A DNA stretch of 33,114 nucleotides, taken from positions 1 through 33,114 of the forward strand of contig JAQWFN010000033.1 of NCBI GenBank assembly GCA_029238785.1, read 5' to 3'. Numbering within the stretch: the stretch's first letter is position 1; every line of letters begins with the position of its first letter. Under the pieces are notes generated by a model. It made no database searches. It was given only the letters and a program-made list of their open reading frames with translations, and had not been told where the DNA came from. The DNA is from Flavobacteriales bacterium (GTDB lineage: Bacteria; Bacteroidota; Bacteroidia; Flavobacteriales_D; Sanyastnellaceae). A program made the position numbers and the translations under genes. Of this stretch, positions 4,741 through 29,178 are shown one piece after another.

Positions 4741-4782
4741 TCAGCCTTATTCTTTTGTATATTGCAGTGAAAACCGAGAAAT

Positions 4783-5526: not shown

Positions 5527-5545
5527 GATTTTCTTAGCATATTTG

Positions 5546-5578
5546 AAGGTCGATTCTTAAAGGATCGACCTTTTTTTT
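5546..5578 (+). terminator. Intrinsic terminator after the Cys-rich T9SS gene
   Basis: A 9-bp stem AAGGTCGAT (5546-5554) pairs with ATCGACCTT (5564-5572) around a 9-base loop and runs directly into a tract of T to 5578. Confidence 0.88.
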
Positions 5579-5593
5579 ACCATCTACTTTCCC

Positions 5594-8500
5594 ATGAAAA
5601 AACTCCTTTACATTCTTTGTTCTTGTTTTTTACTGATTTCATGTAGTGAAGAGGAAACGCAAAATCTCCCATCAAGTGAAGCGGATCAATCACTACTACG
5701 ATTCAGCCAGCACTCGGCTTCGAACTCAGGGGTAACTTTTCAAAACACCATCACCGAAACAGAAGAGGTAAATCACTTGGAATGGGATGCCGTTTATTAC
5801 GGTGGAGGTGTTGCAGCGGGTGATTTAAATGGCGACGGCTTGCCTGATTTATATTTTTCGGGCAATCAAGTGGAAGATGCAGTTTATCTAAATAAGGGCA
5901 ATTTTCAGTTTGAGGACGCATCGCTTCAAGCCAAAATCCAAGAGCCAGGAACATGGTCTAATGGGGTGGCCATGGCTGATGTAAATGGCGATGGACACCT
6001 CGATATCTATGTGTGCAGGTCATCATGGCGAATGGATGACGACCAGCCTGAGCTTAGAAGAAATCGCTTGTTCATCAACCAAAAAGATGGGAGCTTTAAG
6101 GATGAAGCAGCTGCTTATGGCGTTGATAATATTGGATACAGTACACAGGCGTCTTTCTTTGATTATGATCATGATGGCGACTTGGATCTATTTCTCCTCA
6201 ACGCACCAAGCAACAACCTTGATCAAAAAATCCGCTACCAAGAAACGGGCTTTCCAGAATTTTCGAGCGATAAGCTTTACCGCAATGAAGGAGGGACAGT
6301 TTTTACCGACGTTTCAAAGGAAGCAGGTGTGGATGCTTATTCCTTTGGATTAGGCGTGGTTTGTTCAGACTTGAATCATGATGGCTGGGTAGACATCTAC
6401 GTGGCGAACGATTATGAGCGACCAGATTACATGTACATCAACCAGCGAAATGGAACCTTTGTAAATCAGTTGAATGAACGCATCAAGCACACGGCCTTTA
6501 CTGCAATGGGTTGTGATGCGGCAGATTTGAATAACGATGGTTTTGTAGATCTCACGGTGCTCGATATGCAAGCAGAAGATCATCAGCGATCAAAAACCAA
6601 CATGCCTTCAATGCAGCCAGAAAACTTTTGGAGTTATGTGTCGAAAGGCTACAACTACCAATACATGAGTAATGTACTACAAATGAACAACGGAACAGGC
6701 TTCTTTTCTGATGTAGCACAGATGGCTGGCATCGCTTCAACCGATTGGAGTTGGGCTGTTTTGGCGAGTGATTTCGATCAAGACGGATGGAATGATTTGT
6801 ATGTAACAAACGGCATCAATAGAGACATTAGGAACAACGATTTTGCTTTGAGCTTTGAAGAGAAACTGGAGCAAGGAGTACAAGTGAACCTCTTTGAAAT
6901 GGTGGAAGAGGCGCCAGTAACATTAACACCCAACTACCTGTTCCATAATAAAGGTAATTTCCACTTTGAAAAAACCACAGATGATTGGGGCTTGGCTGAA
7001 CCAGCATTTAGTTTTGGCGCAATTACCGCAGACCTCGACCAAGATGGTGATTTGGATTTGATCGTGAACAACAACAATGCACATCCTTTCATTTACGAAA
7101 ATCAAGTGTCGACTGGAAATTGGTTACAAGTAGCGGCCAATGCGGGAACCATGAATCAACAAGGTTTAGGAACGAAAGCCATTGCCTTTGTAGATGGAGA
7201 AATCAGGTATCAAGAATTAACAGGGGTTCGCGCTTACCAATCTTCATCAGAACCGATTATGCACTTTGGTCTAGGAGAACAAACAGTTATTGATTCCTTG
7301 CTTGTTATTTTTCCTGATGGAAAGGCGATCAAACGCTACGATGTGCCAGCTAATCAACGCATCACCTTCAATTCGAAAGAAGCAAAAGTGCAAGCGATAA
7401 AGGTGTATGATTTCAAACCAGCGCTCCTTAGAGACTATTCACAAGCCATCGCAAGTGCAGTTCCACATCAAGAAAACGCTTATGACGATTTCAGTAGAGA
7501 GATTTTATTGCCACACAAACAAAGCGAGCACGGTCCGGCTCTTGCTGTTGGCGACATAAATGGCGACGGTTTAGAAGATGCCTTTCTCGGCGCCTCCATT
7601 GGTTTTGAATCGCAATTTCTTTTGCAAAACAAGCAAGGCGGCTTTGATGTGAGGGCCTCAGGTTTGAAAGATGAGATGTATGAAGACGTGTCGGCAATTT
7701 TGTTTGACGCTGATCAGGATGGAGATCAAGATTTGGTAGTGGCCAGTGGTGGTTATGAATTTGAAGTGAATAGTTCACGTTATGCTGCACGCTTGTACAT
7801 GAATAACAGTGGGAGCTTCGAAAGGGCAAGTGCTGGAGCATGGCCGGAAATCACCACCAACGCCTCAGTGGTGAAAGCCCTAGATTGGGATCTCGATGGC
7901 GATGTAGATGTCTTTCTTGCTGGAGGGGTATTGCCGGGGAAATATCCTCAGATTGATCGATCTTACTTACTCGAAAACTTGGGCGACGGGAAATTCTCTG
8001 CTCAAGATGTAAGCGACTTGTTAGGACAAAATGGGGTCATTACCGATGTGAGATGGGCCAACCTGGAGGGCGATGAGCGTCCAGAACTTATTGCTGTGGG
8101 TGAATGGATGAGTCCGAGCATTTTCACTTGGGGCGAAAGCGGCTTAGAAAAATCGCCATTGAGTTCAGGTTTAGAAGCTTTCCGAGGATGGTGGTGGAGC
8201 ATTGATTTAGCTGATGTCGATAATGATGGTCAGCTCGATCTACTCCTGGGCAACATGGGCGAAAACACCAAGTTTCACGTCAGCAACAAAAAACCACTTC
8301 GTGTTTATGCCAAAGATTTTGATGGAAATGGAACCAACGATGTGGTGCTTTCTAAGAGCTATAAGGATGAGTTTGTTCCGGTGAGAGGGAGAGAATGTTC
8401 TTCCGAGCAAATGCCTTTTGTTAAAGAGAAATTTACAGATTATAAAAGCTTCAGCGAGGCCAATATACAAGAGGTTTTGGGTGCTGGAATTGACGATGCC

Positions 8501-11828: not shown

Positions 11829-14800
11829 GTGATCTTGAGCTCTAAAAAATGGATGAAGTACTCATTGGCAATCGGCCTTCTGAGTATTGTGTGGATAGGT
11901 TTCTCTAACAATGTGGAGAGTTCCTTTGTGAATCCATTGCACCCCAAAGTTCGACGAGAAAAAATAGCAGTTCAAGCTGTTGATACAGGAGATGTGGTGC
12001 TCCCGCTTCCACATGGTGAAGACAGCAACAACCCGGTAGAAAATACGGGTGGAGTTTCCCTCGATTGGCCAGATAACATTCAGTATTCGGTTGAGTACGA
12101 CCCCGAAACAGGGAATTATGTGGTTTACCAAACCATCGGTGATTCACTGCGCTTTAGAATGCCTACCACCTACACGCTGGATGAATACCTAGAAACCAGC
12201 ATTAATGAAAACGTTTCTGAATATTGGACGAGGCTGCAGGAAGAAGAAGATGAAGAAGATCGTGCTTTTGAACCTAAACTTACTGTTGGTGGAGAAGGTT
12301 TTGACCGAATTTTTGGTGGAAATGAAATCTCAATTCGACCACAAGGATCTGCAGAATTGACCTTTGGTGTTAATGTCAGCAAAACAGAAAACCCAAGAAT
12401 TCCAGAGCGTCAGAGAACCATCAGTACCTTCGATTTCCGTCAAAGAATTCAATTAAATGTAGTGGGGAATATTGGTGAGAAAATGCAACTGACTACCCAA
12501 TACAACACCGAAGCAACTTTTGATTTCGAGAACCAAATGAAATTGGAGTACACGGGCGATGAGGATGAAATCATTAAAAAAATTGAGGCAGGTAACGTGA
12601 GTTTGCCGCTCCGTGGGACACTCATCTCAGGAAGTTCAAGTCTATTTGGTCTGAAATTGGAAACGCAGTTTGGTCGCTTAAGAAACACCACCGTTTTCTC
12701 TCAACAAAAAGGGGAACGAAAAGAAATTGAGGTAGAAGGAGGTGCACAAACCCAACTTTTCGACATTCGTGCAGACAACTACGAAGCCAACAAACACTAC
12801 TTCCTCTCAAATTGGTTCAGAGACCAATATGATATTGCCCTTCAAAGTCTTCCTGTGGTGAATTCTGGTGTGAACATCACCCGTATCGAAGTTTGGGTGG
12901 TGAACCAACAAGCGAACACCCAAGACGTCAGGAATGTGATTGGTTTCGCTGATCTTGGTGAGAACCAAGCTTACATGTCGAGCAACATCAACGTTCCTTC
13001 ATATGTGGATGATCCCAACTTGGCCATCACCCCAAATCCATCGAACCTCAATAATGAGATTTTTAGTCGTGTCACTAGCAACCCAGATATCATGGGCTTT
13101 AGTGGAGCAAACGCGGCCATTGCTGCGGAGTTCCCAGAATTTCAACAAGGGATTCACTATGAAAGGGTTGGAAATGCTAGGAAACTTAGTCCTTCTGAGT
13201 ACTCTTACAATACAAGACTAGGGTTTGTCTCACTTCGTCAGGCGCTCAATAATGCCGAGGTACTTGCGGTGTCTTATGAGTATACCCTGAACGGTGAAAC
13301 CTTTCAAGTAGGTACCTTGAGCCAAGATGGATACACTGCACCAAGTGCACTTGCATTGAAAATGCTGAAAAGTTCTATTACGCAAGTAAGTTTAGACAAC
13401 GGCGATCCTTCTCCAATGTGGGACTTGATGATGAAAAACGTCTACAGCATTGGCGCATTTGGGGTGAACAGAGACAACTTTAGATTGGATGTTTGGTATA
13501 ACGATCCCTCAACGGGGGTTGACCTGAATTATATTCCAAGAGAGCCTTTGGACGGACAGCTTTTGATTCAAGTTTTGAACATGGATCAATTGGACGTCAA
13601 CGGAATGAATAACCCAGATGGTGTTTTCGATTTTGTTGATCAGGCAGCTACCATGGGTGGTTTGATTCAAAGTGATAATGGTAGGATTTTCTTCCCAGTT
13701 GTAGAGCCTTTTGGTGAACACCTGGCCAATGAAATTCGAACAAGATTGCCTGCAGAACCCGCATTAGCAGAGGCGGTGGTAAATACCGTGGTTTTCCAGC
13801 CTTTGTATGATAGTACGAAAACAGCTGCGCAACAAATTCCATCCTTAAATCGATTCAGACTTCGCGGACAGTATCAAAGTTCTTCTTCATCAGAGATCCC
13901 ATTGAATGCTTTCAACGTGCCTCAAGGTTCGGTTACTGTTACTGCAGGAGGTGTGAGATTGGTAGAGAACCAAGATTATACGGTTGACTATAAACTCGGT
14001 CGGGTTCGAATTTTGAATGAAGGACTCCTCGACTCTGGTCAGCCCATCAAAGTATCACTCGAAAGTAACTCCCTCTTCAACATTCAAACAAAAACAATGA
14101 TTGGAACCCGCTTCGATTATGAGGTGAGTGATAATTTCAATGTTGGGGCCACCATGCTTAATTTGCGGGAGCGACCCCTAACACAGAAGGTAAATATTGG
14201 TGATGAACCAGTAAACAATACCATCTTGGGAACCGACCTCTCTTACCAAACAGAGTCTGGTTTCCTAACCAAAATGGTTGATAAAATTCCATTCATCGAA
14301 ACCAAAGAGAAGTCGAGCATTGATTTTTCTGCGGAGGCGGCCTACCTTATTCCTGGGCACTCCAGAGCCATTGGTAGAGATGGAAATGCTTACCTCGACG
14401 ATTTCGAAGGAAGCCAAAGTACCATCGATATTCGTTCCATCAATCAGTGGTTCTTGGCGAGTACACCTAAGTTACAGCAAGACCTTTTCCCAGAGGGTGA
14501 TATTGAAGACAATCTCCAATACAACTATAATAGAGCGAAATTAAGCTGGTACATTATTGATCCGCAGTTCTTCCGTGGGAATGGATTGAATGACGGACAG
14601 GTTGATGATGCCATTCGAAGCGACCACAGAATGCGTGAGGTGCTTGAGAACGAGGTATTCCCAAACCGTGAACTTCCTGCAGGAACACCTCCAAACATCG
14701 CCACACTTGATTTAACCTATTACCCCGATGAACGTGGTCCGTATAACTATGTACCACCAGGAGGAGATCAGTTTGCCGATGGATTGAATCCAGACGGTAG

Positions 14801-17800
14801 CTTGGCCAATCCTGAGGAAAGCTGGGGTGGTATTCAACGCGCCTTAACAACCACCGATTTTGAAGCCTCAAACATTGAGTTTATTCAATTTTGGTTGATG
14901 GATCCTTTTAATGACGATTCGCCGAACCAAAGTGGTGGTGACCTCTATTTCAACTTAGGGAACGTTTCGGAAGATGTCTTGAACGATAGCCAATTGAGCT
15001 ACGAGAACGGTATGCCGAGTGAAAACCAAGACCTTCCAATATTGACGGGCACATGGGGATTCTATCCAGACCCTTCTACTTTTAACGTCGTAAATGCCTT
15101 CGATAACTCAGTAGGTAACTACCAGCAGCAAGATATTGGTTTGGATGGATTGAACAGCGACGCAGAGCAAGACTTCTTTGCTGATTGGCTCGCTGATTTG
15201 CAGGCCTTCCTTACTCCTGAAGCCTATTCTCGTTATGTGAACGACCCTTCTGCTGATGACTTTGAATACTTCCGAACGCCTGAGGCCCAAGCTGCCAATG
15301 CTACCATCTTGCAGCGTTACAAGGACTTCAACGGTTATGAAGGAAACGCCAACACGGCCAGCCCGAACGGTTACCCAATTACGGCAACCACCATTCCGAA
15401 TACGGAGGACATCAATGGCGACATTACGCTTGGAACCATCGAAAGCTACTACCAATATAAAGTTAGTCTTCGTCAGCCAGACCTCGGAGAGCAAAACATT
15501 GGAAACAACTACATCTTTGATAGCTTCGAACAAAACGTGAATACACCAGAGGGTGACCGAAATGTTCGTTGGTACCAGTTTAGAATTCCAGTGCGTGAAT
15601 TCCAACGACGTGTAGGAAGCATCTCTGATTTTAGAAGTATTCGTTTCATGAGAATGTTCATGAAGGGATGGAATGAAGAAGTTACCCTGCGTTTTGCTCG
15701 TTTGGAGTTGATTCGTGGTGAATGGAGACAATTCCTCGGGTCACTCGAAGGTGCTCAAGAGATCGAACCTGGAGATCCAGAACCAACTACCTTTAATATC
15801 AACGCCGTAAACATCGAGGAAAACGGAAACAGAGATCCAATTCCTTATGTTACCCCTCCTGGAATTCAGCGAGAAATTGATGTGGCAACCGCCAATCAAC
15901 GTCAGTTGAACGAACAATCGCTCGCCTTAAACGTTTGCAACCTCGAAGATGGTGATGCACGAGCCGCCTACCGGAACGTGAACTTCGACATGAGGATGTA
16001 CGAAAAGCTGAAGATGTTCGTGCATGCGGAAGCCGGCACGGATGAAGAGGTGCTGGCCAATAAAGATGTGACGTGTTTTATTAGACTGGGTAGTGATTTC
16101 GACGATAATTACTACGAGTATGAATTACCAATGACCGTCACCCCATGGTACACAGGAGACCCCGATGCCATCTGGCCCGAGGCAAACGACTTTGAAATTG
16201 AATTTAAGAAACTACAAACGCTTAAGGTAGAACGACCTTCTGGTTTCCCTGTTCAGCAAGTCTTCACACAAAGAGATGGTGAAGCTTTAATTAAAATCAA
16301 GGGTAATCCAAACTTGGCGAATGTTATTGTTTTAATGATTGGCGTTCGAAACCCGGATAAAGATGACGGAAATTTTGCCGGCGATGATGGCTTGGCGAAG
16401 TGTGCTACCATTTGGGCAAATGAGCTTCGTTTGACCGACTTTAATGAAGAGGGCGGTTGGGCTGCAGTAGCTCGTATGAATGCCACACTTGCTGATTTCG
16501 GTAATATTTCTGTAGCAGGTAATATTTCTACTCCAGGGTGGGGAACACTGGAGCAAAGAGTTCAAGAGCGCCAACGAGAAACAGTAATTGGTGTAGACGC
16601 GAACTCAACGCTTCAATTAGGGAAATTCTTCCCAGAAGAATATGGTGTTCAGCTTCCTTTGTACTTGGGGTACTCTGAAAGTGTAACAACACCACAGTTC
16701 GATCCGCTCAGACCAGATATTGAGATTGATGAAGTTCAGTTGACAAGACCTCAGCGAAAGCGGGCCCAACAAATTGTAAGAAGACGAAGCATCAACGTTA
16801 CCAACTTTAGGATTGCGCCAACCGGTAATGCACCAAAAGAGGCAGGAAAAGGTAAAGACGGGAAAAACGATAATCCATCGAAGGGTGGAAAAGGTGGTTC
16901 TGGAGGAAGTTCAGATCCCCGATTCTATAATATTTCGAACTTCAGTTTGTCATACGGTTACAATGAAACCTACCGACGCGACATCAACATGGAGTTCCTC
17001 ATGAACAAGCAATACCGAGGTGGATTGAACTACAGCTTCAACAACAAACCTACCGAGGTAAAACCTTTCAATAAGTTGATAGGAAATGCAGCTTATTTGA
17101 AGTGGTTAAAGGACTTTAACTTCTACACAGGAATCAAGCAGTTTTCATTCAGCACGCTCATGGATCGTACCTACGAAACCAGTAGACTGAGAAACAACAC
17201 AGGAGCACTCTTCGGAGTGGAGTCTGATGTCTTGATTCAAACGCAGGTACTCAAGCAGTGGAACTGGAAGCGAGATTACAACTTGCAGTACGACATCACT
17301 AAAAACCTCAAGTTCGATTTTAACGCAAGCAACTTAGCCTTGGTTGGTGAACCTACAGGAGTTATTGATCGTGAAGCAGAGGGTTACAGTGCCTATCGTG
17401 ATACCGTTTGGAACAACATTCGAGGTTTTGGTGAAACCACCAATTACAATCACACCTCTTCTCTCTCATACAAGCTTCCTTTTGATAAAATTCCACTCTT
17501 AGATTTCATCAGCTCGGATGCTAGATATCAATCGGCCTACCGCTGGGACCGAGCACCATTTGCGCAAGATTCCTTGGGGCACACCATTCAGAACAGCCGA
17601 AACTTGAGCTTGAATGCACAAGCAAATTTGGTGAATTGGTACAATAAGATCGATTACTTCAAAGACATCAACAATGCCAAGCCAGCACGCCAGAACAATC
17701 GGAATACCGATAATTCTAGGAAAAATGGCTTTGGTGAAACGGAAGAGGAAGAGGAAGAAGAAAAGGCGAAAATTGACCCAGTAAAGAGCATTGCCCGCCT

Positions 17801-19196
17801 CTTGATGATGGTGCGAAATGTTTCTGGGTCTTATACTAGAAACGAAGGAATACTCTTACCGGGATATGACAGAAGAACGCAGTTTGTAGGAATGGACGAG
17901 AATTTCGATGGTCCGGGTGTAGGGTTTATCTTTGGTCAACAGAACACCGATATTTTCGGGAATGAAATTGATAACTACGCCATCCAAGCAGCTCAAAACG
18001 GTTGGTTGGTGCAACAACCTTTCTTGAACCAGCAGTACAGCGAAACCTACTCTGAGAATTGGAATGTTAGAGCCAATATTGAGCCTTTCAAGTACTTCAA
18101 AGTAGAGCTTACCGCAAACAGAACCAACTCCACCAACAAGCAGAGTTTCTTTAGGTATGATGAAGATTCAGACTCCTTCAACTTTGAATCGCCAATGGAA
18201 ACCGGAAACTTGTCAGCTTCCATTATCACTTGGCCAACCGCGTTTTCAAATGATGATGAAGACTTCAATTCAGAGGTGTTTGAGCAGTTCTTGTTGAATA
18301 GATTAACGATTTCAGACCGCCTGAACCAAGAGTCGTATCAATTGTCTGATGCCGAAGATAATGGTTACTACCAAGGATGGGGACCAACCTCTCAGGACGT
18401 GACTATTCCAGCTTTTATCGCTGCTTACACTGGCAAAGACCCTTCTGAAGTACCTTTGGATGTGTTCAAAACAAAAGCACAGCCCAACTGGAGAATTACC
18501 TATGATGGTTTAACCAAGTTGCCTTCAGTTAAAAAGCACTTCAAGCAGTTTAACGTGAGCCATACCTACCGTTCTACCATGACCACTTCGTATGTTACGA
18601 ACTTGAGTTACGAAGAGAACGAAGCCGGTTTGCCAAGTGCTTTGGATCAAAGTGATTTCCCGAACTTTATTGCTCAACGTCAGATCAATACTGTGAGCAT
18701 CAGCGAGCAATTAGCGCCTTTGATTGGATTCGATATGACCTTAAAAACAAAAGGCAAGAACGATCCACAAGTAAGAGTGGAATTGAAAAGAGACCGAACA
18801 GTGACCTTGGGCTTGAGTAACTTTCAGATTACCGAAACAAAGAGCAATTCCTTGGTGATTGGTTTAGGGTATAAGCTGACTGAAATTCCAAATCCTTTCT
18901 TGAGAACCAAAGGAAGATTGCCTGTTCAGATGTTAGAGAAAACGCAATTGAGTATTCGTGCCGATTTAACCATTAGAGACAATGTTACCTTGATTCGAAA
19001 GATGGTAGAGCGTCAGAATCAGGTCACTGCTGGGCAGAAAATCATTTCGATCAAAACCAGTGCGGATCTTGAAATGTCGAAGAAATTGACCTTGCGATTC
19101 TTCTATGATCACCAATTAACTCGACCAAAAATTTCAACCTCTTTCCCTACGTCAAACATTAGTTCAGGTATCACCTTGAGGTTTACTTTGAACTAA
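11829..19196 (+). CDS. sprA: T9SS outer-membrane translocon / gliding motility protein SprA
   Basis: About 2450 residues, the size typical for SprA, a giant 36-strand barrel that is the protein-conducting channel of the type IX secretion system. Visible hallmarks are the N-terminal signal region, repeated SprA_N-type segments (TFGVNVSKTENPRIPERQR ... FDFRQRIQLNVVGNIGEK), GRDGNAYLDDFEGSQSTID, and a long C-terminal strand-rich half ending in Phe-Thr-Leu-Asn. The ruvA-sprA-gcvH order is familiar from other flavobacteria. The frame given begins at GTG, 3 bases after ruvA; an ATG at 11853 (MKYSLAIGLLSIVWIGFSN) gives a cleaner signal peptide and may be the true start. Two low-complexity inserts stand out: a Gly/Lys/Ser stretch near residues 1668-1698 and a Glu run near 1971-1979. 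Confidence 0.95.
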   Translation: MILSSKKWMKYSLAIGLLSIVWIGFSNNVESSFVNPLHPKVRREKIAVQAVDTGDVVLPLPHGEDSNNPVENTGGVSLDWPDNIQYSVEYDPETGNYVVYQTIGDSLRFRMPTTYTLDEYLETSINENVSEYWTRLQEEEDEEDRAFEPKLTVGGEGFDRIFGGNEISIRPQGSAELTFGVNVSKTENPRIPERQRTISTFDFRQRIQLNVVGNIGEKMQLTTQYNTEATFDFENQMKLEYTGDEDEIIKKIEAGNVSLPLRGTLISGSSSLFGLKLETQFGRLRNTTVFSQQKGERKEIEVEGGAQTQLFDIRADNYEANKHYFLSNWFRDQYDIALQSLPVVNSGVNITRIEVWVVNQQANTQDVRNVIGFADLGENQAYMSSNINVPSYVDDPNLAITPNPSNLNNEIFSRVTSNPDIMGFSGANAAIAAEFPEFQQGIHYERVGNARKLSPSEYSYNTRLGFVSLRQALNNAEVLAVSYEYTLNGETFQVGTLSQDGYTAPSALALKMLKSSITQVSLDNGDPSPMWDLMMKNVYSIGAFGVNRDNFRLDVWYNDPSTGVDLNYIPREPLDGQLLIQVLNMDQLDVNGMNNPDGVFDFVDQAATMGGLIQSDNGRIFFPVVEPFGEHLANEIRTRLPAEPALAEAVVNTVVFQPLYDSTKTAAQQIPSLNRFRLRGQYQSSSSSEIPLNAFNVPQGSVTVTAGGVRLVENQDYTVDYKLGRVRILNEGLLDSGQPIKVSLESNSLFNIQTKTMIGTRFDYEVSDNFNVGATMLNLRERPLTQKVNIGDEPVNNTILGTDLSYQTESGFLTKMVDKIPFIETKEKSSIDFSAEAAYLIPGHSRAIGRDGNAYLDDFEGSQSTIDIRSINQWFLASTPKLQQDLFPEGDIEDNLQYNYNRAKLSWYIIDPQFFRGNGLNDGQVDDAIRSDHRMREVLENEVFPNRELPAGTPPNIATLDLTYYPDERGPYNYVPPGGDQFADGLNPDGSLANPEESWGGIQRALTTTDFEASNIEFIQFWLMDPFNDDSPNQSGGDLYFNLGNVSEDVLNDSQLSYENGMPSENQDLPILTGTWGFYPDPSTFNVVNAFDNSVGNYQQQDIGLDGLNSDAEQDFFADWLADLQAFLTPEAYSRYVNDPSADDFEYFRTPEAQAANATILQRYKDFNGYEGNANTASPNGYPITATTIPNTEDINGDITLGTIESYYQYKVSLRQPDLGEQNIGNNYIFDSFEQNVNTPEGDRNVRWYQFRIPVREFQRRVGSISDFRSIRFMRMFMKGWNEEVTLRFARLELIRGEWRQFLGSLEGAQEIEPGDPEPTTFNINAVNIEENGNRDPIPYVTPPGIQREIDVATANQRQLNEQSLALNVCNLEDGDARAAYRNVNFDMRMYEKLKMFVHAEAGTDEEVLANKDVTCFIRLGSDFDDNYYEYELPMTVTPWYTGDPDAIWPEANDFEIEFKKLQTLKVERPSGFPVQQVFTQRDGEALIKIKGNPNLANVIVLMIGVRNPDKDDGNFAGDDGLAKCATIWANELRLTDFNEEGGWAAVARMNATLADFGNISVAGNISTPGWGTLEQRVQERQRETVIGVDANSTLQLGKFFPEEYGVQLPLYLGYSESVTTPQFDPLRPDIEIDEVQLTRPQRKRAQQIVRRRSINVTNFRIAPTGNAPKEAGKGKDGKNDNPSKGGKGGSGGSSDPRFYNISNFSLSYGYNETYRRDINMEFLMNKQYRGGLNYSFNNKPTEVKPFNKLIGNAAYLKWLKDFNFYTGIKQFSFSTLMDRTYETSRLRNNTGALFGVESDVLIQTQVLKQWNWKRDYNLQYDITKNLKFDFNASNLALVGEPTGVIDREAEGYSAYRDTVWNNIRGFGETTNYNHTSSLSYKLPFDKIPLLDFISSDARYQSAYRWDRAPFAQDSLGHTIQNSRNLSLNAQANLVNWYNKIDYFKDINNAKPARQNNRNTDNSRKNGFGETEEEEEEEKAKIDPVKSIARLLMMVRNVSGSYTRNEGILLPGYDRRTQFVGMDENFDGPGVGFIFGQQNTDIFGNEIDNYAIQAAQNGWLVQQPFLNQQYSETYSENWNVRANIEPFKYFKVELTANRTNSTNKQSFFRYDEDSDSFNFESPMETGNLSASIITWPTAFSNDDEDFNSEVFEQFLLNRLTISDRLNQESYQLSDAEDNGYYQGWGPTSQDVTIPAFIAAYTGKDPSEVPLDVFKTKAQPNWRITYDGLTKLPSVKKHFKQFNVSHTYRSTMTTSYVTNLSYEENEAGLPSALDQSDFPNFIAQRQINTVSISEQLAPLIGFDMTLKTKGKNDPQVRVELKRDRTVTLGLSNFQITETKSNSLVIGLGYKLTEIPNPFLRTKGRLPVQMLEKTQLSIRADLTIRDNVTLIRKMVERQNQVTAGQKIISIKTSADLEMSKKLTLRFFYDHQLTRPKISTSFPTSNISSGITLRFTLN

Positions 19197-19200
19197 GCTA

Positions 19201-19230
19201 TTTGATAGCTCATTAAAAGCACTATTTTTG
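19201..19230 (+). promoter_or_regulatory. Bacteroidota-type promoter for gcvH
   Basis: TTTG (19201-19204), 18 bases, then TATTTTTG (19223-19230), an exact match to TAnnTTTG. It lies just after the sprA stop and 17 bases before the gcvH ATG, giving gcvH expression independent of the sprA transcript. Confidence 0.7.
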
Positions 19231-19247
19231 CCCAAAATCTGGATAAA

Positions 19248-19625
19248 ATGAATATCCCTGCAGAATTAAAATACACGAAAGACCACGAGTGGATTCGCCT
19301 AGAAGGAGATACCGCTGTTATTGGCATTACTGATTACGCGCAAGATCAATTGGGCGATATCGTTTACGTTGAAATTGAAACCGAAGGTGAGACTTTGGAT
19401 AATGAAGAAGTGTTTGGAACTGTTGAAGCAGTTAAAACCGTTTCTGACTTGTTTATGCCGATTGCTGGTGAGGTGATTGAATTTAACAGTGCCTTGGAAG
19501 ATAATCCAGCATTGGTGAATGAAGACCCTTATGGTGAAGGCTGGATGATCAAAGTGAAGGTGAGCGATTCAAGTGAGCTAAGTGCTCTTCTCGATGCTGC
19601 TGCTTACCAAGACTTGATTGCCTAA
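19248..19625 (+). CDS. gcvH: Glycine cleavage system H protein
   Basis: 125 residues, normal length. GcvH carries a lipoyl arm that shuttles the aminomethyl group between the P, T and L proteins of glycine cleavage. The lipoylation site is visible in [16 protein letters not shown] (Lys63), and the N-terminus has the usual YTKDHEWI. gcvP and gcvT are not in the window; isolated gcvH next to sprA is common in this group. A near-perfect promoter lies directly upstream. The stop overlaps the next ATG by one base (TAATG), so it is co-translated with the VanZ-like gene. Confidence 0.95.
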
Positions 19626-20011
19626 TGGACATACTTCGTCACATGATTTGGTCCTTTTCGTGGATCATTGTTGTGGCTTTGCTTTATGCTATTCCTGGAG
19701 GAGACCTACCAGTGGTCGATGTCTGGGATTTATTGAGCTTCGATAAAATTGCCCACTTCGGTGTGTTTGCCCTTTTATCCTTGTTCATTAGTATTGGGCT
19801 GAAACGGCAAATGAGTTTTCCAACTTTGAGAAGACGAGCTTTGAGAACGGCTGCTTTGTTCTCCCTTGTTTACGGGGGAGTTTTAGAAGCATTGCAGGGT
19901 GTTCTCTTTCAAGATCGCTATTCAGACTGGTTCGATTTTGCCGCCAATACACTGGGTGTGTTGCTTGGACTTGTTATTTTTCGCCTACTTTATGGTAAAG
20001 AAGCTATATAG
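19625..20011 (+). CDS. VanZ-like family membrane protein
   Basis: 128 residues with four predicted membrane helices (about 8-25, 40-57, 75-92 and 105-122). The first loop has the VanZ-like SFDKIAHFGVFALLSLF segment, and the Asp-Trp-Phe-Asp-Phe-Ala-Ala-Asn block before the last helix is typical of the family. VanZ-like proteins are inner-membrane proteins; VanZ itself gives low-level teicoplanin resistance, but chromosomal homologues have no settled role. The one-base overlap with gcvH suggests translational coupling. Confidence 0.85.
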   Translation: MDILRHMIWSFSWIIVVALLYAIPGGDLPVVDVWDLLSFDKIAHFGVFALLSLFISIGLKRQMSFPTLRRRALRTAALFSLVYGGVLEALQGVLFQDRYSDWFDFAANTLGVLLGLVIFRLLYGKEAI

Positions 20012-20052
20012 AGGCATGTTTTTTGTTATTTTTAGGGCTGATAAATGAACCA

Positions 20053-20760
20053 ATGGAAAAACGTAAAACTCCAGAAGCAGATATAGAACGCAAGCGAGTA
20101 GCTTGGCGAATTTTAGGATTTATGGCTGTATTTGCCTTCATCCTTAGCGCCTTAGCGTGGACTTCATACGAAATCAAAGAGACAGGTGGTTTGGCATTTG
20201 ACCAACTCGACATGCTCGAAGATGAAATTATTCCTGTGGCTACCACGCCACCACCACCACCGCCACCACCACCACCGGCGACTACGGTTATTGAAATCGT
20301 AGAAGATGAGGAGGAAATCGAAGAGGAGTTGGTTGTTGAAGATCTTGACTTGGATGAAAATACCGAAATTGTAGAGATCGAATATGAAGAAGAGGAAGTG
20401 GTTGATGATACCCCATTCATGGTGGTAGAAAACATGCCTGCTCTTGGTGAGTGTAAAGAGTTGAGAGGCGACGAAAGAAACCAATGTACTCAACTTGAGA
20501 TCATTAAATTTATTCAGAAAAATACCAAATACCCGCCAATTGCAAAAGACGCTGGGATTCAAGGAACTGTTTTCGTATATTTCGTTGTGGATAGAGACGG
20601 AAAGGTGAAAGATGCTAAAGTACTTCGCCCCGTTGATAGCCGCCTTGACAAGGAAGCTTTGCGCGTGGTGAACAGCCTACCTACTTTCGAGCCAGGTAAG
20701 CAACGCGGTAAGTCGGTGAACGTACAGTACACCATCCCTGTGAAGTTTGTGATAAGATAA
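20053..20760 (+). CDS. tonB: TonB-family energy transducer
   Basis: 235 residues from the ATG at 20053. It transmits proton-motive force from ExbB/ExbD to outer-membrane receptors. A cytoplasmic stretch (MEKRKTPEADIERKRVAW) is followed by one membrane helix (about 20-40), a run of ten prolines (about 69-78), a strongly acidic Glu/Asp/Val linker of about 45 residues, and a C-terminal TonB domain (about 155-235: YPPIAKDAGIQGTVFVYFVV ... YTIPVKFVIR). The open frame extends upstream to a TTG at 20023, but the MEKRK start matches the usual Bacteroidota TonB N-terminus. No exbB/exbD is adjacent. The acidic linker is longer than in many homologues. It is followed by a terminator shared with the convergent gene. 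Confidence 0.92.
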   Translation: MEKRKTPEADIERKRVAWRILGFMAVFAFILSALAWTSYEIKETGGLAFDQLDMLEDEIIPVATTPPPPPPPPPPATTVIEIVEDEEEIEEELVVEDLDLDENTEIVEIEYEEEEVVDDTPFMVVENMPALGECKELRGDERNQCTQLEIIKFIQKNTKYPPIAKDAGIQGTVFVYFVVDRDGKVKDAKVLRPVDSRLDKEALRVVNSLPTFEPGKQRGKSVNVQYTIPVKFVIR

Positions 20761-20885: not shown

Positions 20886-21401
20886 TTAGCCTTGAGCGAG
20901 ATGATTCAATACCGACTCCAAACGCTGTTCAAGCTTTCCTTCCACCACTTTAAATTTGGCTTGAGTGCTCCCTAAGCGTTCGTGATATCGCTGAAACAAG
21001 CGATCTCGGTCTAAAGGGTTTTCACGCAGTGGGTCGGGTTCCCAGGGGATGTCCGGACTACAAAGCACGTGGAAATCGATTTCCCATAATGCTTTATTAG
21101 GCTCCCAGCCTGGAGGAAGGCGATTGAATTTCTCTTGAAACCAGATTTCCAACACCAGGTGGTCGCTATCAAGCACCATGTATTCTGAGTTGGAAAAGCT
21201 TTTTGCTTTTTGAAGGGCTTCGAGTTGTAAGCGCGCAATGTGAGCTATATCCTCAAAGGTGTAGTTTGGCTTGTCTTTCAAAAAAAAGCGCGCAATTTCT
21301 GGGATATAAGCACAGCCCAATTCACGAGCCAGCGCTATGGCCAAACTTGTTTTTCCCGAACTCTCAGGTCCGCTGATGGCAATGATTTTCTTTTTATCCA
21401 T
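20886..21401 (-). CDS. NadR-like P-loop kinase (AAA domain), probably phosphorylates a PnuC-imported vitamin
   Basis: 171 residues from the ATG at 21399-21401. The Walker A motif GPESSGKT is at residues 11-18, followed by a helix and YIPEIARFFL, as in the ribosylnicotinamide-kinase part of NadR and related AAA ATPases. DSDHLVLEIWFQEKF is a plausible Walker B/substrate region. The NMN adenylyltransferase domain of full NadR is absent. With pnuC directly upstream (8-base overlap), the likely role is trapping imported nicotinamide riboside as the mononucleotide; thiamine or another vitamin is possible given the YkoF-like gene in the operon. An upstream ATG at 21411-21413 is an alternative start adding four residues. 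Confidence 0.78.
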   Translation of the reverse strand: MDKKKIIAISGPESSGKTSLAIALARELGCAYIPEIARFFLKDKPNYTFEDIAHIARLQLEALQKAKSFSNSEYMVLDSDHLVLEIWFQEKFNRLPPGWEPNKALWEIDFHVLCSPDIPWEPDPLRENPLDRDRLFQRYHERLGSTQAKFKVVEGKLEQRLESVLNHLAQG

Positions 21402-21960
21402 TGATGAAACCATATATCGCCAAGAAAAAATAAATCACAAACAAAACAGCGCCAAAGTAAAGTTTGCGCTTGAGGTAGAGCAGCGCTGAAACCGCGTCAA
21501 TCACAATCCAATAGCCCCAATTTTCATGGATGAAGTTCACCATCAGCACGGTTGCAACAAGGCTAAATACGGTAGTAAAGGCATCCAGAAATGGCGCCGC
21601 AGCATTACTGAATCGCTTCAGCCCAAAACCAAGCAGGGCTGTGCCTAAAATAGCAGTGATGAGGTAGGGAATGTTTTCCCACCAGGTGTGATGGAGCACC
21701 AACCACCCATCGCTGGTGTTGAGGTAGCCATAAATCGCAAATCCCACGTAGAAGAGTTGGAGGGCGCTTTCGGCATAAATCCGTTTCAGCCAGCATAAAT
21801 AAACAAATCCTAAAGCCCCTAAACCCCCGAAAATAAAGCACCACGAATGGCCTTGGATATAGGTCCAAGTATAAATGAGACTAAAGACCACCGAAACAAT
21901 TTCGATGAGCTTTAGCACTTGCTGCTTAGGCTGTAGGTTGGTGCTCGTAGCTGCTGACAT
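21394..21960 (-). CDS. pnuC: PnuC-family vitamin transporter
   Basis: 188 residues, seven hydrophobic segments, as in PnuC facilitators that import nicotinamide riboside and rely on intracellular phosphorylation. Recognisable features are the N-terminal EIVSVVFSLIYTWTYIQGHSW segment (first helices), YGYLNTSDGWLVLHH (YGW-type loop) and the last helices with AVLFVIYFFLAIYGF. Family members also include PnuT (thiamine) and PnuX (riboflavin), so the substrate is not certain. The reading overlaps the YkoF-like gene by 35 bases; a GTG at 21918 would remove the overlap but is less likely than the ATG. The 3' end overlaps the kinase start by 8 bases, which supports a transporter-kinase pair. Confidence 0.88.
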   Translation of the reverse strand: MSAATSTNLQPKQQVLKLIEIVSVVFSLIYTWTYIQGHSWCFIFGGLGALGFVYLCWLKRIYAESALQLFYVGFAIYGYLNTSDGWLVLHHTWWENIPYLITAILGTALLGFGLKRFSNAAAPFLDAFTTVFSLVATVLMVNFIHENWGYWIVIDAVSALLYLKRKLYFGAVLFVIYFFLAIYGFING

Positions 21961-22201
21961 CGCCTTTGAGGAATTTCATCACAAATACCGATTGTTCTCC
22001 ATCGTTCCAAGTGGATTTCATCCCTTCTTGGATCAGCGGCATTAGCGTGTCTATTGGTCCGTACACCTGCGTGCTCATGCCGTTAGTGACGATTTTTACA
22101 TCGGGAGCTTGTTCGAGTTCAGCAATAAACTTCAAAACAGCTTGTTCGTACGCTTGGTGCAAGGGGTACAAACTTATTTCAATGGAGACAAAGTGGTTCA
22201 T
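21926..22201 (-). CDS. YkoF-like thiamine/HMP-binding domain protein
   Basis: 91 residues, one ACT-like alpha/beta domain. The N-terminus FVSIEISLYPL, central VTNGMSTQVYGPID (residues 38-51) and C-terminal FVMKF are the pattern of the YkoF/MTH1187 group that binds thiamine or hydroxymethylpyrimidine. No signal peptide, so it is cytoplasmic. In other bacteria such proteins are linked to vitamin transporters. Here it lies directly upstream of a PnuC transporter and overlaps the LRR gene by 4 bases (ATGA). Binding specificity cannot be read from the sequence. Confidence 0.72.
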   Translation of the reverse strand: MNHFVSIEISLYPLHQAYEQAVLKFIAELEQAPDVKIVTNGMSTQVYGPIDTLMPLIQEGMKSTWNDGEQSVFVMKFLKGDVSSYEHQPTA

Positions 22202-22806
22202 TCGTCGTCAAAGGTACAAACACAAGGCGCAGAAAGAATGATTTCGACCTCAGGAAGCAGAAATCGAAGTGTTTCTTGCTCGCTGGCGTTCATATCGTTG
22301 TTCAGTAGGTCCAGCTTCACTAAGTATTGCAGTCGGCTCAAGCTTTGCGGAAAATAGCTCACCACGTTGCTCCACAAGAGCAGTTCTTGGAGTTTTTTGA
22401 GCTGATAAATGTCGTCTGGAATTTTAGAGATAAAGTTATCGCCGAAAGAAAGGATTACAAGTGCTTTACAGGCCAATACTCCTTCGGGGAAGGGGTCGAT
22501 GTTGTTGTGGTCGGCGCGTAAGATTTGCAAGTTTTTTAGCTTCGCGATGGAGGCCGGAATGGAATCGAGTTTGTTTCTGTCAAGGATCAACTCGTTTAAA
22601 TAGGTGAGTTGAGTAATTTCTTCGGGAAATGATTTGAGGCGCTGTCTTGTAAGGTCCAAGCGATAAACCGGAAGAGGAGATTGCAGCGCAGCTTCGATCG
22701 AGGTGAACACCTTAGCCGTATCAAGCTGATCGTAATCGATCAACTCAATTTGGGCGCTGAGGTTCAGGCCAGATAGAAGAAATAGACAAAGCAATATTCG
22801 TTTCAT
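22198..22806 (-). CDS. Exported leucine-rich repeat protein
   Basis: 202 residues. A signal peptide (MKRILLCLFLLSGLNLSA) is followed by about six LRR units of ~23 residues: LTRQRLKSFPEEITQLTYL, NELILDRNKLDSIPASIAKL, QILRADHNNIDPFPEGVLAC, VILSFGDNFISKIPDDIYQL and so on, each with LxxLxLxxNxL/I spacing. The C-terminus is short and ends CVCTFDDE, with two Cys. LRR proteins bind other proteins; the partner is unknown. It overlaps ribF at its start and the YkoF-like gene at its end, each by 4 bases (ATGA), so a periplasmic or surface LRR protein is firmly embedded in a cofactor/vitamin operon, which is odd. Confidence 0.85.
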   Translation of the reverse strand: MKRILLCLFLLSGLNLSAQIELIDYDQLDTAKVFTSIEAALQSPLPVYRLDLTRQRLKSFPEEITQLTYLNELILDRNKLDSIPASIAKLKNLQILRADHNNIDPFPEGVLACKALVILSFGDNFISKIPDDIYQLKKLQELLLWSNVVSYFPQSLSRLQYLVKLDLLNNDMNASEQETLRFLLPEVEIILSAPCVCTFDDE

Positions 22807-23732
22807 GCAAGTGTGTTCAGTGCGGCTTGTTTGTCTTGGCTAAGCTGTGCTTTCAATTCGTCAAAAGAAAGAAAACGCTTTTCGCTGCGAATTCGATCAA
22901 TCAAATGTAAGGTGATTTTCTCACCATAGATGTTCTCATCAAAGTCGAAGAGGTGTGCTTCAATTCGAAGTTCACCTTCTTCATTCACCGTAGGTCGGTT
23001 CCCGATGTTCAGCATCCCTTTTAAGTGTTGTCCCTTTATTGTTGCGGTAATAGCGTAAACACCATTTCCTGGGAGCAGCTTATTTGGGTTGCTGACTTGA
23101 ACATTTGCTGTAGCAAAACCAAGTTTGTTGCCAATGCCGTCTCCTTCAATAACGATGCCATGGAGCGGATAGTTGTATCCGAGGTAGTGATTTGCTGTAG
23201 AAATATCTCCTTCGGCTACTGCTTTTCTAATTTTTGTAGAGCTCACGTTCACTTCTTCCAGCATTTGAGCGGGGATTTCTTCGACCAGAAATTCGAACAT
23301 TTCTCCATATTCTACAAGGTGTTGAAAGTCGCCTTCGCGGTTTTTTCCAAAGCGATGATCGTAGCCCACCACCATTTTATAGGGTTGAATTCCTTCTACT
23401 AAAAGTTCCCGTACATATTCGAGGGCGGTTTTTTTCGAAAAGTCTTTCGTGAAAGGTTGAATCACCAGGTTTTGGAGTCCGGCCGCTTCCAAACAGGCAA
23501 TTTTTTCATCTTCCGTATTGAGGAGCTTTAAGCCGTGATCGTCTGGGAAGATCACCATTCGGGGATGGGGTGAAAAAGTGAGCATGACCGATTCTCCACC
23601 CACCTCCTCTGCGATGGTGTTGATGCGATGAATGATGCTCTTGTGTCCGATATGGACGCCGTCAAAAGTTCCCGTCGTTAAAACAGGTTTATTAACATTT
23701 TTGAAAGAATGTACGCCGTGATAAATGTTCAA
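22803..23732 (-). CDS. ribF: Bifunctional riboflavin kinase / FAD synthetase RibF
   Basis: 309 residues from a TTG at 23730-23732, the usual length. It converts riboflavin to FMN and FMN to FAD. The N-terminal FAD synthetase domain shows TTGTFDGVHIGH (19-30) and FSPHPR (53-58), then VSSTKIRKAV (163-172). The C-terminal riboflavin kinase domain begins about 185. Its motif, normally GFPTAN, reads GFATAN (205-210), with Ala in place of the Pro. The open frame extends to another TTG at 23765, but that codon lies inside a perfect -7 element (TATATTTG), and the MNIYHG start fits family N-termini. It is first of five overlapping genes, diverging from atpD. Confidence 0.93.
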   Translation of the reverse strand: MNIYHGVHSFKNVNKPVLTTGTFDGVHIGHKSIIHRINTIAEEVGGESVMLTFSPHPRMVIFPDDHGLKLLNTEDEKIACLEAAGLQNLVIQPFTKDFSKKTALEYVRELLVEGIQPYKMVVGYDHRFGKNREGDFQHLVEYGEMFEFLVEEIPAQMLEEVNVSSTKIRKAVAEGDISTANHYLGYNYPLHGIVIEGDGIGNKLGFATANVQVSNPNKLLPGNGVYAITATIKGQHLKGMLNIGNRPTVNEEGELRIEAHLFDFDENIYGEKITLHLIDRIRSEKRFLSFDELKAQLSQDKQAALNTLA

Positions 23733-23762: not shown

Positions 23763-23770
23763 CAAATATA
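23763..23770 (-). promoter_or_regulatory. -7 element of the ribF operon promoter
   Basis: On the minus strand TATATTTG exactly matches TAnnTTTG. The -33 box is poor (TCTG at about the expected distance). Transcription would start near 23756, leaving about 24 bases before the TTG start at 23732. That leaves no room for an FMN or TPP riboswitch. Confidence 0.5.
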
Positions 23771-25726: not shown

Positions 25727-27106
25727 TCAAGCTTTAAATCGTTTCGGGCGTTTGGGCCTCATTTCCTTGCCCACCCCAACAAAAACCATCAACACCGCCA
25801 TGTAAAGCGGAATCAAAGGGATTTTAAAGCGCACCAAAGCTCCAAAGTTGGAGGAGGTAATGCCAATCATAAAGGCAAACAAGACCGAGAAAACCAAAGC
25901 ATAGAGGAGAACGGGATAGGCCGAGAATAATGGTCGGATCACCCGAAAAGGGATTTTCCAAAGGGCGTAAACCGTGAGCAAGAGCATGAAGAGGTTTTCT
26001 AAGCCTGCGAGGATCATCACCAAATTTCTGCTTTCCCAAAGGTAAGGACGGTACAAACCGGCAGTTGTTGCCGCGGGGAATTTAGCGGCGATGGAGGGCA
26101 AGGTGGCGTCGAATTCACCAATGTCGAAGCTGTTACCATCGTAATAATCCTGTTTTAAGTCGTTTTGGATGATCACTGCAGTGTTAAGCGCTTCATCTAA
26201 AGAAAACCTACCCAGGGAATCACCAAAGAGCGTGAGTGCGCCATAGCTTCCTCCGAGGATAAGGATGTAGATCAAAGGAACAATGACCGTTCTGAAATAA
26301 ACATTTTTGATGCTTCTAATTTTAGAATAGAAGTACCAGACAAGTGTTGAGGGGATTAGGATGATGATGATGTATGGTTTGATGGCTAGAATGGCAGCAC
26401 CACTAATAAGCTGCTTGATGATTCTCGTTTTCCAGTTGGGTTTTCTGAGTACCATGTCGTTGGTGGCCACCACAAAGTAGCACGTGGCGGCCAAGGTGAT
26501 GCTGTCTTTCAACATGCCTGAACCCCAGAAGGCCAGCGAAGGCATAAATAGAATGGCCACCGATAGCAATTTGTAATACTTGGGAAAGTAGCTCACAAAC
26601 ATGCGGTACAATTGCCAGAGTCCGCCATAGCTCAGCAGCGCAATCCACATGGTGGCCAGGAAGTACTTCTTCGCCCCGAGAAAAACAAAAGGCACCATGA
26701 GTTTACTCACCACACGGGTTTTGTCGTTAAAAAAGATGTATCCCAAAGGCGTCCCCGTTTCATTGGTAAACAGGCTTCTCATTTCGGCTGTGCCTCCGCC
26801 AAAATAAGCTTCAAAAAAGGCACTTGGACTGTGCCAAAAAAGGTTCACAAAGGCCAAGGCACATTCGTAGTAGCTGGTAGTATCGCCACCCTCGTAATAG
26901 AAGATATAAATCACCCCGAAAAAGAGTCCACCTAGCAGTTTCACCAACATTCCCGGGAGGAAGAAGCGAAAGGAAGGGTCTGTTTTCACCTCTCGGTATT
27001 GAATGCGGTAGGTCCACCCCCCAAAGACCAAGAACATGAGCAGCAAGACCGCAATTTCCCAGAGTTCGATGGGTATTTTACCGTATGTAAAGGTGGGGAT
27101 GTACAT
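25727..27106 (-). CDS. Unassigned polytopic inner-membrane protein
   Basis: 459 residues with about ten hydrophobic helices spread over the whole length, for example IAVLLLMFLVFGGWTY, LVKLLGGLFFGVIYIFYY and ILILGGSYGALTLF. The first external loop holds YYEGGDTTSYYECAL, an acidic/aromatic motif. A loop with EFDATLPSIAAKFPAATTAGLYRPYLWE precedes the last helices, and the C-terminus is basic (KEMRPKRPKRFKA), so it is probably cytoplasmic. The layout resembles O-antigen polymerases and GT-C glycosyltransferases, but no diagnostic catalytic motif was recognised, so no function is given. It overlaps rlmH by one base (TAATG), so the two are co-translated. Confidence 0.75.
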   Translation of the reverse strand: MYIPTFTYGKIPIELWEIAVLLLMFLVFGGWTYRIQYREVKTDPSFRFFLPGMLVKLLGGLFFGVIYIFYYEGGDTTSYYECALAFVNLFWHSPSAFFEAYFGGGTAEMRSLFTNETGTPLGYIFFNDKTRVVSKLMVPFVFLGAKKYFLATMWIALLSYGGLWQLYRMFVSYFPKYYKLLSVAILFMPSLAFWGSGMLKDSITLAATCYFVVATNDMVLRKPNWKTRIIKQLISGAAILAIKPYIIIILIPSTLVWYFYSKIRSIKNVYFRTVIVPLIYILILGGSYGALTLFGDSLGRFSLDEALNTAVIIQNDLKQDYYDGNSFDIGEFDATLPSIAAKFPAATTAGLYRPYLWESRNLVMILAGLENLFMLLLTVYALWKIPFRVIRPLFSAYPVLLYALVFSVLFAFMIGITSSNFGALVRFKIPLIPLYMAVLMVFVGVGKEMRPKRPKRFKA

Positions 27107-28199: not shown

Positions 28200-28255
28200 G
28201 GCTCCGCTCAGTCAGCGGAGTTGGTTGATGCAGCCTGAGCGGAGTCGAAGGCTGC
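28196..28255. repeat. Palindromic intergenic element, copy A
   Basis: CTTCGGCTCCGCTCAG (28196-28211) is the reverse complement, with one G-T pair, of CTGAGCGGAGTCGAAG (28235-28250). A competing smaller hairpin, GCAGCCT (28230-28236) with AGGCTGC (28249-28255), uses the same right arm. Nearly the same ~70 bases recur at 30167-30240. It lies between the DUF4783-like gene and nadC. Confidence 0.85.
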
Positions 28256-28268
28256 GTTTGTGGATTCA

Positions 28269-28296
28269 ATTCCTTATTCCTCATTCCCAATTCCTA
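28269..28296. repeat. Second 7-bp-period array upstream of nadC
   Basis: ATTCC recurs at 28269, 28276, 28283 and 28290, exactly every 7 bases with the other two bases varying. A further ATTCC at 28301 is out of phase. The array ends about 25 bases before the nadC ATG. Confidence 0.65.
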
Positions 28297-28320
28297 ATTA
28301 ATTCCCGTAATTTTACCCAC

Positions 28321-29178
28321 ATGAGGGCAGAACACTTTAATATGGATGAGTTCATTGAGCATGCATTGTTTGAGGACTTGAATAACGAGGGCGATCACAC
28401 CACACTGGCTTGCGTGCCGCCAAAGGCGGAGCGCAGGGCGCGTTTGTTGGTGAAGGAAGATGGGATTATTGCCGGTATTGAAGTGGCTCGAAAGGTGTTT
28501 GCCAAGGTAGATCCCAAGTTGATGATGGAGGTTTTCGTGAAGGATGGAGATGCGGTGAAGTATGGCGATGAGGCCTTTTATGTTTCGGGTTCTGCGCGTT
28601 CTATTTTGACGGCTGAGCGACTCGTTTTAAACTTGATGCAACGCATGAGCGGGGTGGCTACGAAGGCCAATCGTGTTCAAGCTTTGTTAAAGGGAACAAA
28701 GGCCAAGGTGCTCGATACGCGGAAAACCACACCCGGGATGCGCTATTTTGAGAAATGGGCCGTGGCCATTGGTGGTGGAACGAATCACCGTTATGGTTTG
28801 TTCGACATGATCATGATCAAAGACAACCACGTGGATTATGCAGGGGGAATTCCCGAGGCGATACAGCGGGTGAAGGATTATCTTGAAGCCCATTGTTTGG
28901 ATTTGAAAATTGAAGTGGAAGCACGAAATTTAGAAGAGGTGAAGGCCATTTTAAAGGCAGGAGGCGTAGATCGTATCATGCTCGACAACTTCACCCCAGA
29001 AGCCACAATGGAGGCCTTGAAGGTGATTGATGGTGCTACCGAGACCGAATCTTCGGGGGGAATCACCGAAAGTACCATTCGTGCTTATGCTGAAACGGGG
29101 GTGGATTTTATTTCCATGGGCGCTTTAACTCATAGTGTTTCTTCTTTAGACATGAGCTTGAAGGCTTTGGCGGAATGA
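28321..29178 (+). CDS. nadC: Nicotinate-nucleotide pyrophosphorylase (carboxylating), quinolinate PRTase
   Basis: 286 residues from the ATG at 28321. It makes nicotinate mononucleotide from quinolinate and PRPP in de novo NAD synthesis. Motifs: LFEDLNNEGDHTTLA (N-terminal), LTAERLVLNLMQRMSGVAT (97-115), DTRKTTPG (132-139), GGGTNHRYGL (151-160), KDNH (167-170), and the C-terminal barrel end SSGGITESTIRAYAETGVDFIS. The frame is open 32 codons further upstream, but that part is repeat-derived sequence and not protein-like. The ATG at 28342 (MDEFIEHALFED) is a second possible start. A -7-like TAATTTTA lies at 28308-28315. It overlaps yihY by 4 bases (ATGA). Confidence 0.95.
   Translation: MRAEHFNMDEFIEHALFEDLNNEGDHTTLACVPPKAERRARLLVKEDGIIAGIEVARKVFAKVDPKLMMEVFVKDGDAVKYGDEAFYVSGSARSILTAERLVLNLMQRMSGVATKANRVQALLKGTKAKVLDTRKTTPGMRYFEKWAVAIGGGTNHRYGLFDMIMIKDNHVDYAGGIPEAIQRVKDYLEAHCLDLKIEVEARNLEEVKAILKAGGVDRIMLDNFTPEATMEALKVIDGATETESSGGITESTIRAYAETGVDFISMGALTHSVSSLDMSLKALAE

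Follow-up and report, generated by a model that had tools for sequence, protein, structure and literature searches.

This study was concerned with a run of five overlapping genes in a contig of a Flavobacteriales bacterium (JAQWFN010000033.1, positions 1 to 33,114; this whole stretch of 33,114 nucleotides is called the window). All five open reading frames (ORFs) of the run, proposed earlier in a preliminary description, were confirmed in place on the minus strand. The first encodes RibF, a bifunctional riboflavin kinase/FAD synthetase (22803..23732), and starts with TTG, with another in-frame TTG at 23765. The second, whose ATG overlaps the ribF stop by 4 bases, encodes a leucine-rich repeat (LRR) protein with a hydrophobic, signal-peptide-like N-terminus and a C-terminal PCxC tail (22198..22806). 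These are followed by genes for a YkoF/UPF0045-like putative thiamine-binding protein (TBP; 21926..22201), a PnuC-family permease proposed here as a thiamine importer in the role of PnuT (21394..21960), and a P-loop kinase resembling the ribosylnicotinamide kinase (RNK) domain of NadR, proposed here as a thiamine kinase (20886..21413). Counted from the first ATG of the kinase, the overlaps along the five genes are 4, 4, 35 and 20 bases. The first three agree with the preliminary description, and the 8 bases given there for the fourth apply only if the inner ATG at 21401 is the start. The five-gene order was found again in relatives and is therefore not a matter of chance. The operon is ribF and the LRR gene (unit A) with the TBP, PnuC and kinase genes (unit B) behind them; each unit is often found without the other, and thus the operon represents two joined units. 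Our interpretation, held with good confidence, is that unit B serves thiamine salvage, its NadR-RNK-like kinase making thiamine monophosphate (TMP) for ThiL in place of Tnr3/ThiN, and that unit A is a separate ribF-LRR pair.

The family assignments of the five proteins differ in strength. RibF passes TIGR00083 (241.8 bits, cut-off 184.35) and contains FAD_syn and Flavokinase domains. The permease is above the cut-off of two models, PF04973 (134.8 bits, cut-off 27.3) and TIGR01528 (63.2 bits, cut-off 42.45), and a profile of its relatives matches PnuC 4qtn (E 2.6e-20). The LRR protein matches LRR_8 (49.3 bits, cut-off 27) and LRR_14 (51.3 bits). The kinase passes PF13521 AAA_28 (71.8 bits, cut-off 27) and fails the NadR model TIGR01526, which it matches at profile positions 163-319 of 325 only (52.3 bits, cut-off 341.15). 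The TBP scores below the gathering cut-off of PF01910 Thiamine_BP (21.7 against 24.9 bits). It also resembles the UPF0045 protein MJ1052 (2eky, E 0.0022), and a distant relation to PF01910 is likely. No Rfam family at its gathering threshold and no tRNA was found within the window.

The neighbourhoods of these genes were surveyed in 150 genomes of the order, each at least 90% complete, including the genome of the window (G000). RibF was matched in 147 genomes, PnuC in 121, the kinase in 117, TBP in 33, and the LRR profile in 143, a few of these matches possibly being generic LRR proteins. Genes were counted as adjacent when they lay within 3 kb on one strand. Among the matches listed, PnuC and the kinase are within 3 kb in 98 of the 115 genomes with both, 57 of these 98 pairs lie away from the LRR gene, and TBP is near PnuC or the kinase in 24 of the 33 TBP genomes. 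The LRR and YkoF-like genes do occur in the operon in relatives, and the preliminary description was right to see the run as a cofactor operon in which a Pnu permease is accompanied by a trapping kinase and, probably, a vitamin binder. For the alignments, L060 (G037, interrupted reading frame) was left out of A1, L078, L081, L084 and L086 out of A2, and L048 out of A3. PF01910-like genes were also seen away from PnuC and the kinase, behind a gene for an FAD-dependent oxidoreductase (PF01266) in L027 (G026, 7947-8195) and beside a UbiA-type gene in L021 (G031, 4739-4996).

The distribution of thiamine pyrophosphokinase (TPK; PF04263) argues for thiamine as the substrate of the kinase. TPK occurs in six of the 150 genomes (G318, G327, G330, G337, G350 and G370), which are exactly the six with PnuC but without the kinase, and PF04263 has no match in the 117 kinase genomes or in G000. 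For the 121 PnuC genomes the TPK/kinase table reads 6/0/0/115 (Fisher p 2.6e-10, kinship ignored). The PnuC loci of the six, among 20 fetched, had been chosen for the absent kinase before the TPK search. In a control set of 14 genomes, the PF04263 search picked up the enzyme in 6, including a Bacteroides. The six TPK genomes belong to five genera, two of which contain both enzymes: g29 holds 17 kinase genomes and one TPK genome, and g174 holds two and one. Neither enzyme was found in 27 of the 29 genomes without PnuC. In addition, ThiL is present in 148 of the 150 genomes, G000 included, and therefore a kinase that makes TMP would be enough.

Thiamine pyrophosphate (TPP) riboswitches form the second line of evidence. 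Matches were found in 134 of the 150 genomes and exceed the Rfam gathering score of 54.3 bits in 64. With the gathering threshold applied, five of 28 loci show a TPP riboswitch in the gap from the kinase (from PnuC in G370) to a gene for a TonB-dependent receptor. A more permissive scan covered six loci, of which five belong to the 28, and gave a riboswitch in this gap in every one (37.9-47.2 bits, all below gathering; one partial). The six include G315 and G287, where a second TPP riboswitch heads the TBP-PnuC-kinase genes, at 65.7 bits and at 32.1 bits (the latter under the gathering score); in G372 one lies upstream of PnuC. Across the survey, 27 of the 117 kinase genomes carry a same-strand TPP riboswitch no more than 600 nt downstream from the kinase, against about 0.01 expected from a rough random-placement estimate; 11 of these 27 exceed the gathering score. 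Wherever it was checked, the ORF behind a kinase-adjacent riboswitch is a TonB-dependent receptor. Twenty further sampled TPP riboswitches, 12 of them from the family of the window, all head an ORF of 747-897 amino acids with a receptor Plug domain. A profile built from those 20 receptors finds every one of 20 tested receptor ORFs that adjoin a kinase or PnuC gene (19 distinct, since L029 and L273 are the same gene) at 373-1121 bits, and matches none of five other large ORFs, three of them located behind a kinase (G028, G039 and G309).

The earlier suggestion that the transporter could take nicotinamide riboside (NR), thiamine or riboflavin was thus narrowed to thiamine, which the TPP riboswitches and the TPK swap favour. 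Riboflavin, suggested by the neighbouring ribF, was rejected, since 41 of the 118 genomes with both genes (matches listed) have PnuC no further than 3 kb from ribF. The window and 28 loci scanned at the gathering threshold gave no FMN riboswitch match, and neither an NAD nor an FMN riboswitch is among the Rfam matches of the window and the scanned relative loci. The riboswitch context by itself suits any thiamine vitamer, so that the kinase might act on a breakdown product or precursor, such as hydroxymethylpyrimidine or the thiazole alcohol, rather than on thiamine. This we consider improbable, because the kinase is swapped for PF04263 enzymes; two of the six were scanned, and both score above the cut-off of TIGR01378 thiamine diphosphokinase (131.6 and 140.9 bits against 76.4), a model for an enzyme that acts on thiamine itself.

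The other alternative for unit B is an ordinary NR route, in which PnuC would import NR and the kinase would make nicotinamide mononucleotide. In its favour, the permease is above the cut-off of TIGR01528 and retains the WxxW motif, and the kinase has an RNK-like fold and a partial NadR match, below the cut-off. According to PMC7162841, WxxW in transmembrane segment 6 of Pnu permeases binds the substrate. As a substrate test the motif was rejected: the PnuC proteins of riboswitch-linked loci (L248-L250, L257) have the identical WxxW, and thus it does not separate substrates here. The fold of the kinase is similarly uninformative. Its model fits NadR no better than it fits deoxynucleoside or thymidylate kinases, the three being about equal (8x7f, Z 16.4, root-mean-square deviation 3.3 over 174 residues; deoxyadenosine and thymidylate kinases less than 1 Z away), and therefore the match is to a fold, not to one enzyme, and gives no substrate. 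The Trp/Tyr pair of Haemophilus influenzae NadR, which we take to be its nicotinamide clamp (numbering assumed likewise), is absent from the 27 aligned kinases save for one Trp at the second site. This argues only weakly against the NR route, since the solved NadR 9x6f also lacks the pair. Aligned kinases instead share an invariant Trp91, where three aligned NadR have Phe or Tyr. The NR route is further opposed by the TPP riboswitches around unit B, the exact swap with TPK and a NadC gene in the window (28225-29178), which fits de novo NAD synthesis. For these reasons, we regard an NR route as unlikely.

Several observations weigh against the thiamine interpretation. First, none of the 27 kinase-adjacent riboswitches occurs in the window's own family and none lies in the window at the gathering threshold; the riboswitch linkage that marks a PnuT locus was seen in relatives of other families. 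Membership of the regulon here therefore rests on those other families and on the receptor. Secondly, the receptor in the window's genome is split over two ORFs on the minus strand of L288 (G000:C88:24000-36000), 4807-5724 and 5748-7499. Both lie behind a TPP riboswitch (G000:C88:31551-31659; 51.3 bits, below gathering) and both match the receptor profile, and thus G000 has a TPP-linked receptor of this kind. Third, in G028, G039 and G309 the kinase is followed by a large ORF that the receptor profile does not match, and the kinase is matched without PnuC in G309 and G398 (the G398 matches are weak). Fourth, the swap statistic ignores phylogeny, and the search behind it was for PF04263, with ThiK/APH-like thiamine kinase families outside it. 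In addition, the nearest sequence and fold relatives of the kinase are NR and nucleoside kinases, and NCBIfam (TIGR01528) names the permease an NR transporter. Lastly, TBP has no match in 117 of the 150 genomes and is below the cut-off in the window. As to the split receptor, G001 of the same genus has a single ORF of 894 amino acids, and the split in G000 may be a draft error or a real break.

In the proposed thiamine route, a TonB-dependent receptor under TPP riboswitch control would carry thiamine over the outer membrane; its gene is elsewhere in G000 and beside the kinase in many relatives. The PnuC-family permease would pass thiamine through the inner membrane, a role proposed from the context in relatives. 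The kinase would then trap it as TMP (ATP + thiamine to TMP, an activity proposed from genomic context), ThiL would convert TMP to TPP, and TBP may bind the vitamin. In this, the kinase would stand in for the Tnr3/ThiN thiamine pyrophosphokinase of the OMthi-PnuT-Tnr3 locus. According to PMC5613172, most gut Bacteroidetes studied have OMthi, pnuT and tnr3 in one operon, with TPP riboswitches; that locus has in common with the proposed route a TonB-dependent receptor, a Pnu permease, a thiamine-phosphorylating enzyme and a TPP-riboswitch link, the last seen for unit B in relatives. Unit B differs in that a NadR-RNK-like AAA_28 kinase would take the place of Tnr3/ThiN and, in some genomes, a PF01910-like protein is added; in the window it stands behind ribF-LRR, with the receptor elsewhere in the genome. 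The kinase shares the fold and the Walker A, D-T-D and W-x-x-D-x-L-R motifs with the RNK domain of NadR (1lw7, 8x7f, 6gye), but it is without the NMNAT domain and has a thiamine context in relatives. The permease shares PF04973 and WxxW with PnuC, PnuT and PnuX (4qtn), and the context in its relatives is a TPP riboswitch and a thiamine-type receptor. The locus looks like a known kind, Bacteroidota thiamine acquisition; its kinase is apparently new, and it adjoins a so far undescribed LRR family that is linked to ribF.

More broadly, and with somewhat less confidence than in the assignment of unit B, we think it probable that a vitamin B3 pair, a PnuC-type permease and a NadR-type RNK domain, was repurposed for vitamin B1. 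It would have given a new, non-orthologous thiamine kinase family that replaces TPK in most genomes surveyed (117 of 150) and is easily mistaken for an NR kinase; beside it, ribF would carry an exported and so far undescribed LRR protein in which the C-terminal CxC is obligatory. NR and thiamine are both positively charged heterocycles, each with an alcohol, and this likeness makes a switch of specificity open to testing. If the proposal is correct, naming the thiamine kinase would close a missing step in Flavobacteriales B1 salvage, and annotations that imply vitamin B3 use, for instance "nicotinamide riboside transporter PnuC" (TIGR01528), would need correcting. A literature search, covering titles and the starts of abstracts with most subscription papers outside its reach, returned no NadR-like or Flavobacterium thiamine kinase and no link between an LRR protein and ribF. 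A Baltic Sea study (PMC12442306) reports omr1 and pnuC as the dominant B1 genes expressed by Bacteroidetes. This agrees with unit B, and with uptake genes so dominant the ecology depends on who can use the imported thiamine.

Unit A looks like a separate and older pair. Among the matches listed, ribF and the LRR gene are within 3 kb on the same strand in 129 of the 136 genomes with both, 124 of them within 300 bp. The weaker LRR matches of G030, G287, G289, G299 and G341 are outside these counts, although the pair is visible in G030, G289 and G299. In all 33 relative loci inspected, with or without PnuC and kinase downstream, the LRR gene is directly behind or overlapping ribF; 22 have the 4-base overlap when the start nearest the ribF stop is used, a choice that favours overlap. 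The preliminary description had suggested the LRR protein as a partner in uptake, for example of a TonB-dependent receptor. It does lie between RibF and TBP or PnuC in several families, and in three g157 genomes a TPP riboswitch follows ribF-LRR, with thiC behind it in both genomes scanned (G288 and G298). However, for 86 of the 129 ribF-LRR pairs (matches listed) no PnuC or kinase gene lies within 3 kb, more than half of the PnuC-kinase pairs lie away from the LRR gene as noted above, and ribF-LRR is retained in genomes where neither PnuC nor kinase was found (for example, G029, G312 and G344). A partnership with the thiamine receptor or permease is therefore not supported and looks unlikely. 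In G288 (L291), the thiC gene downstream of the riboswitch is split over two ORFs; the G298 locus is L290.

The adjacency in unit A could also be a frozen accident with no functional meaning, a serious possibility though not the one we favour. RibF is cytoplasmic whereas the LRR protein looks exported, seven of the 136 genomes (matches listed) keep both genes apart, and the contig L194, titled Flavobacteriaceae, has ribF without the LRR gene. In contrast, the pair is constant in 12 sampled f9 loci while the lengths of the flanking ORFs vary (lengths compared), although in G032 and G310 a single ORF on the opposite strand separates ribF from the LRR gene, and the LRR profile matches nearly every genome surveyed, a few of these matches possibly being generic. 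Six genomes of f54 have the LRR gene away from ribF; one of them is G295, where no ribF was found. Elsewhere, ribF-LRR was seen in three (L189, L190 and L191) of 27 ribF loci inspected (L189-L215, out of 59); the 24 without it include L194, loci with non-Bacteroidota titles (e.g. L210 and L214) and L199, which ends right behind ribF. A phylum-wide LRR search gave chiefly partial, generic LRR matches outside the order. In the f54 loci L150-L155 the LRR-CxC gene stands apart from ribF, and in L150, the one scanned, genes for an outer-membrane protein and NAD synthase are next on the other strand.

The LRR family, found in most surveyed genomes of the order with no described function found, is characterized by its C-terminus. 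C195 and C197 are its sole invariant residues, present in 75 of 75 proteins, a set limited to at most 275 amino acids and to matches reaching profile position 195, a selection that leans toward CxC. These cysteines are more conserved than the structural LRR positions tabulated. A Trp occupies position 145 in 56 of the 75 proteins. Outside the set, one of 28 LRR-profile matches ends in CxC. The usual C-terminus is [SD]-x-[PSA]-C-x-C plus up to 12 residues, and 73 of the 75 proteins have a hydrophobic N-terminal stretch, from which the protein looks exported; thus its link to RibF is probably via shared expression only. The AlphaFold2 model of the LRR protein is a solenoid (mean predicted local distance difference test score 87.9), confident as far as the last strand (188-192), whereas the PCxC tail is modelled with low confidence. 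The 50 Foldseek matches listed are all LRR folds, the best being 4tzh (E 1.7e-11). The family shares this fold with the Leptospira LRR proteins 4tzh, 4u06 and 7yjw, which are presumably exported, and is distinguished by the site behind ribF and perhaps by the invariant CxC. The CxC is likely the working part of the protein, in metal or thiol chemistry. As a tentative guess, the protein may serve as a scaffold outside the cytoplasm, with two cysteines forming a metal or thiol site, and be expressed along with flavin synthesis.

Two other features of the window were observed. A gene for a 459-amino-acid protein (25727-27106) overlaps rlmH by 1 base and lies between atpD and rlmH also in the relatives L018, L026 and L030. 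Convergent with the operon, 11829-20760 holds an ORF of 2455 amino acids, which we take to be SprA-like, followed by GcvH-like, VanZ-like and TonB genes, and this row is repeated in the same three loci.

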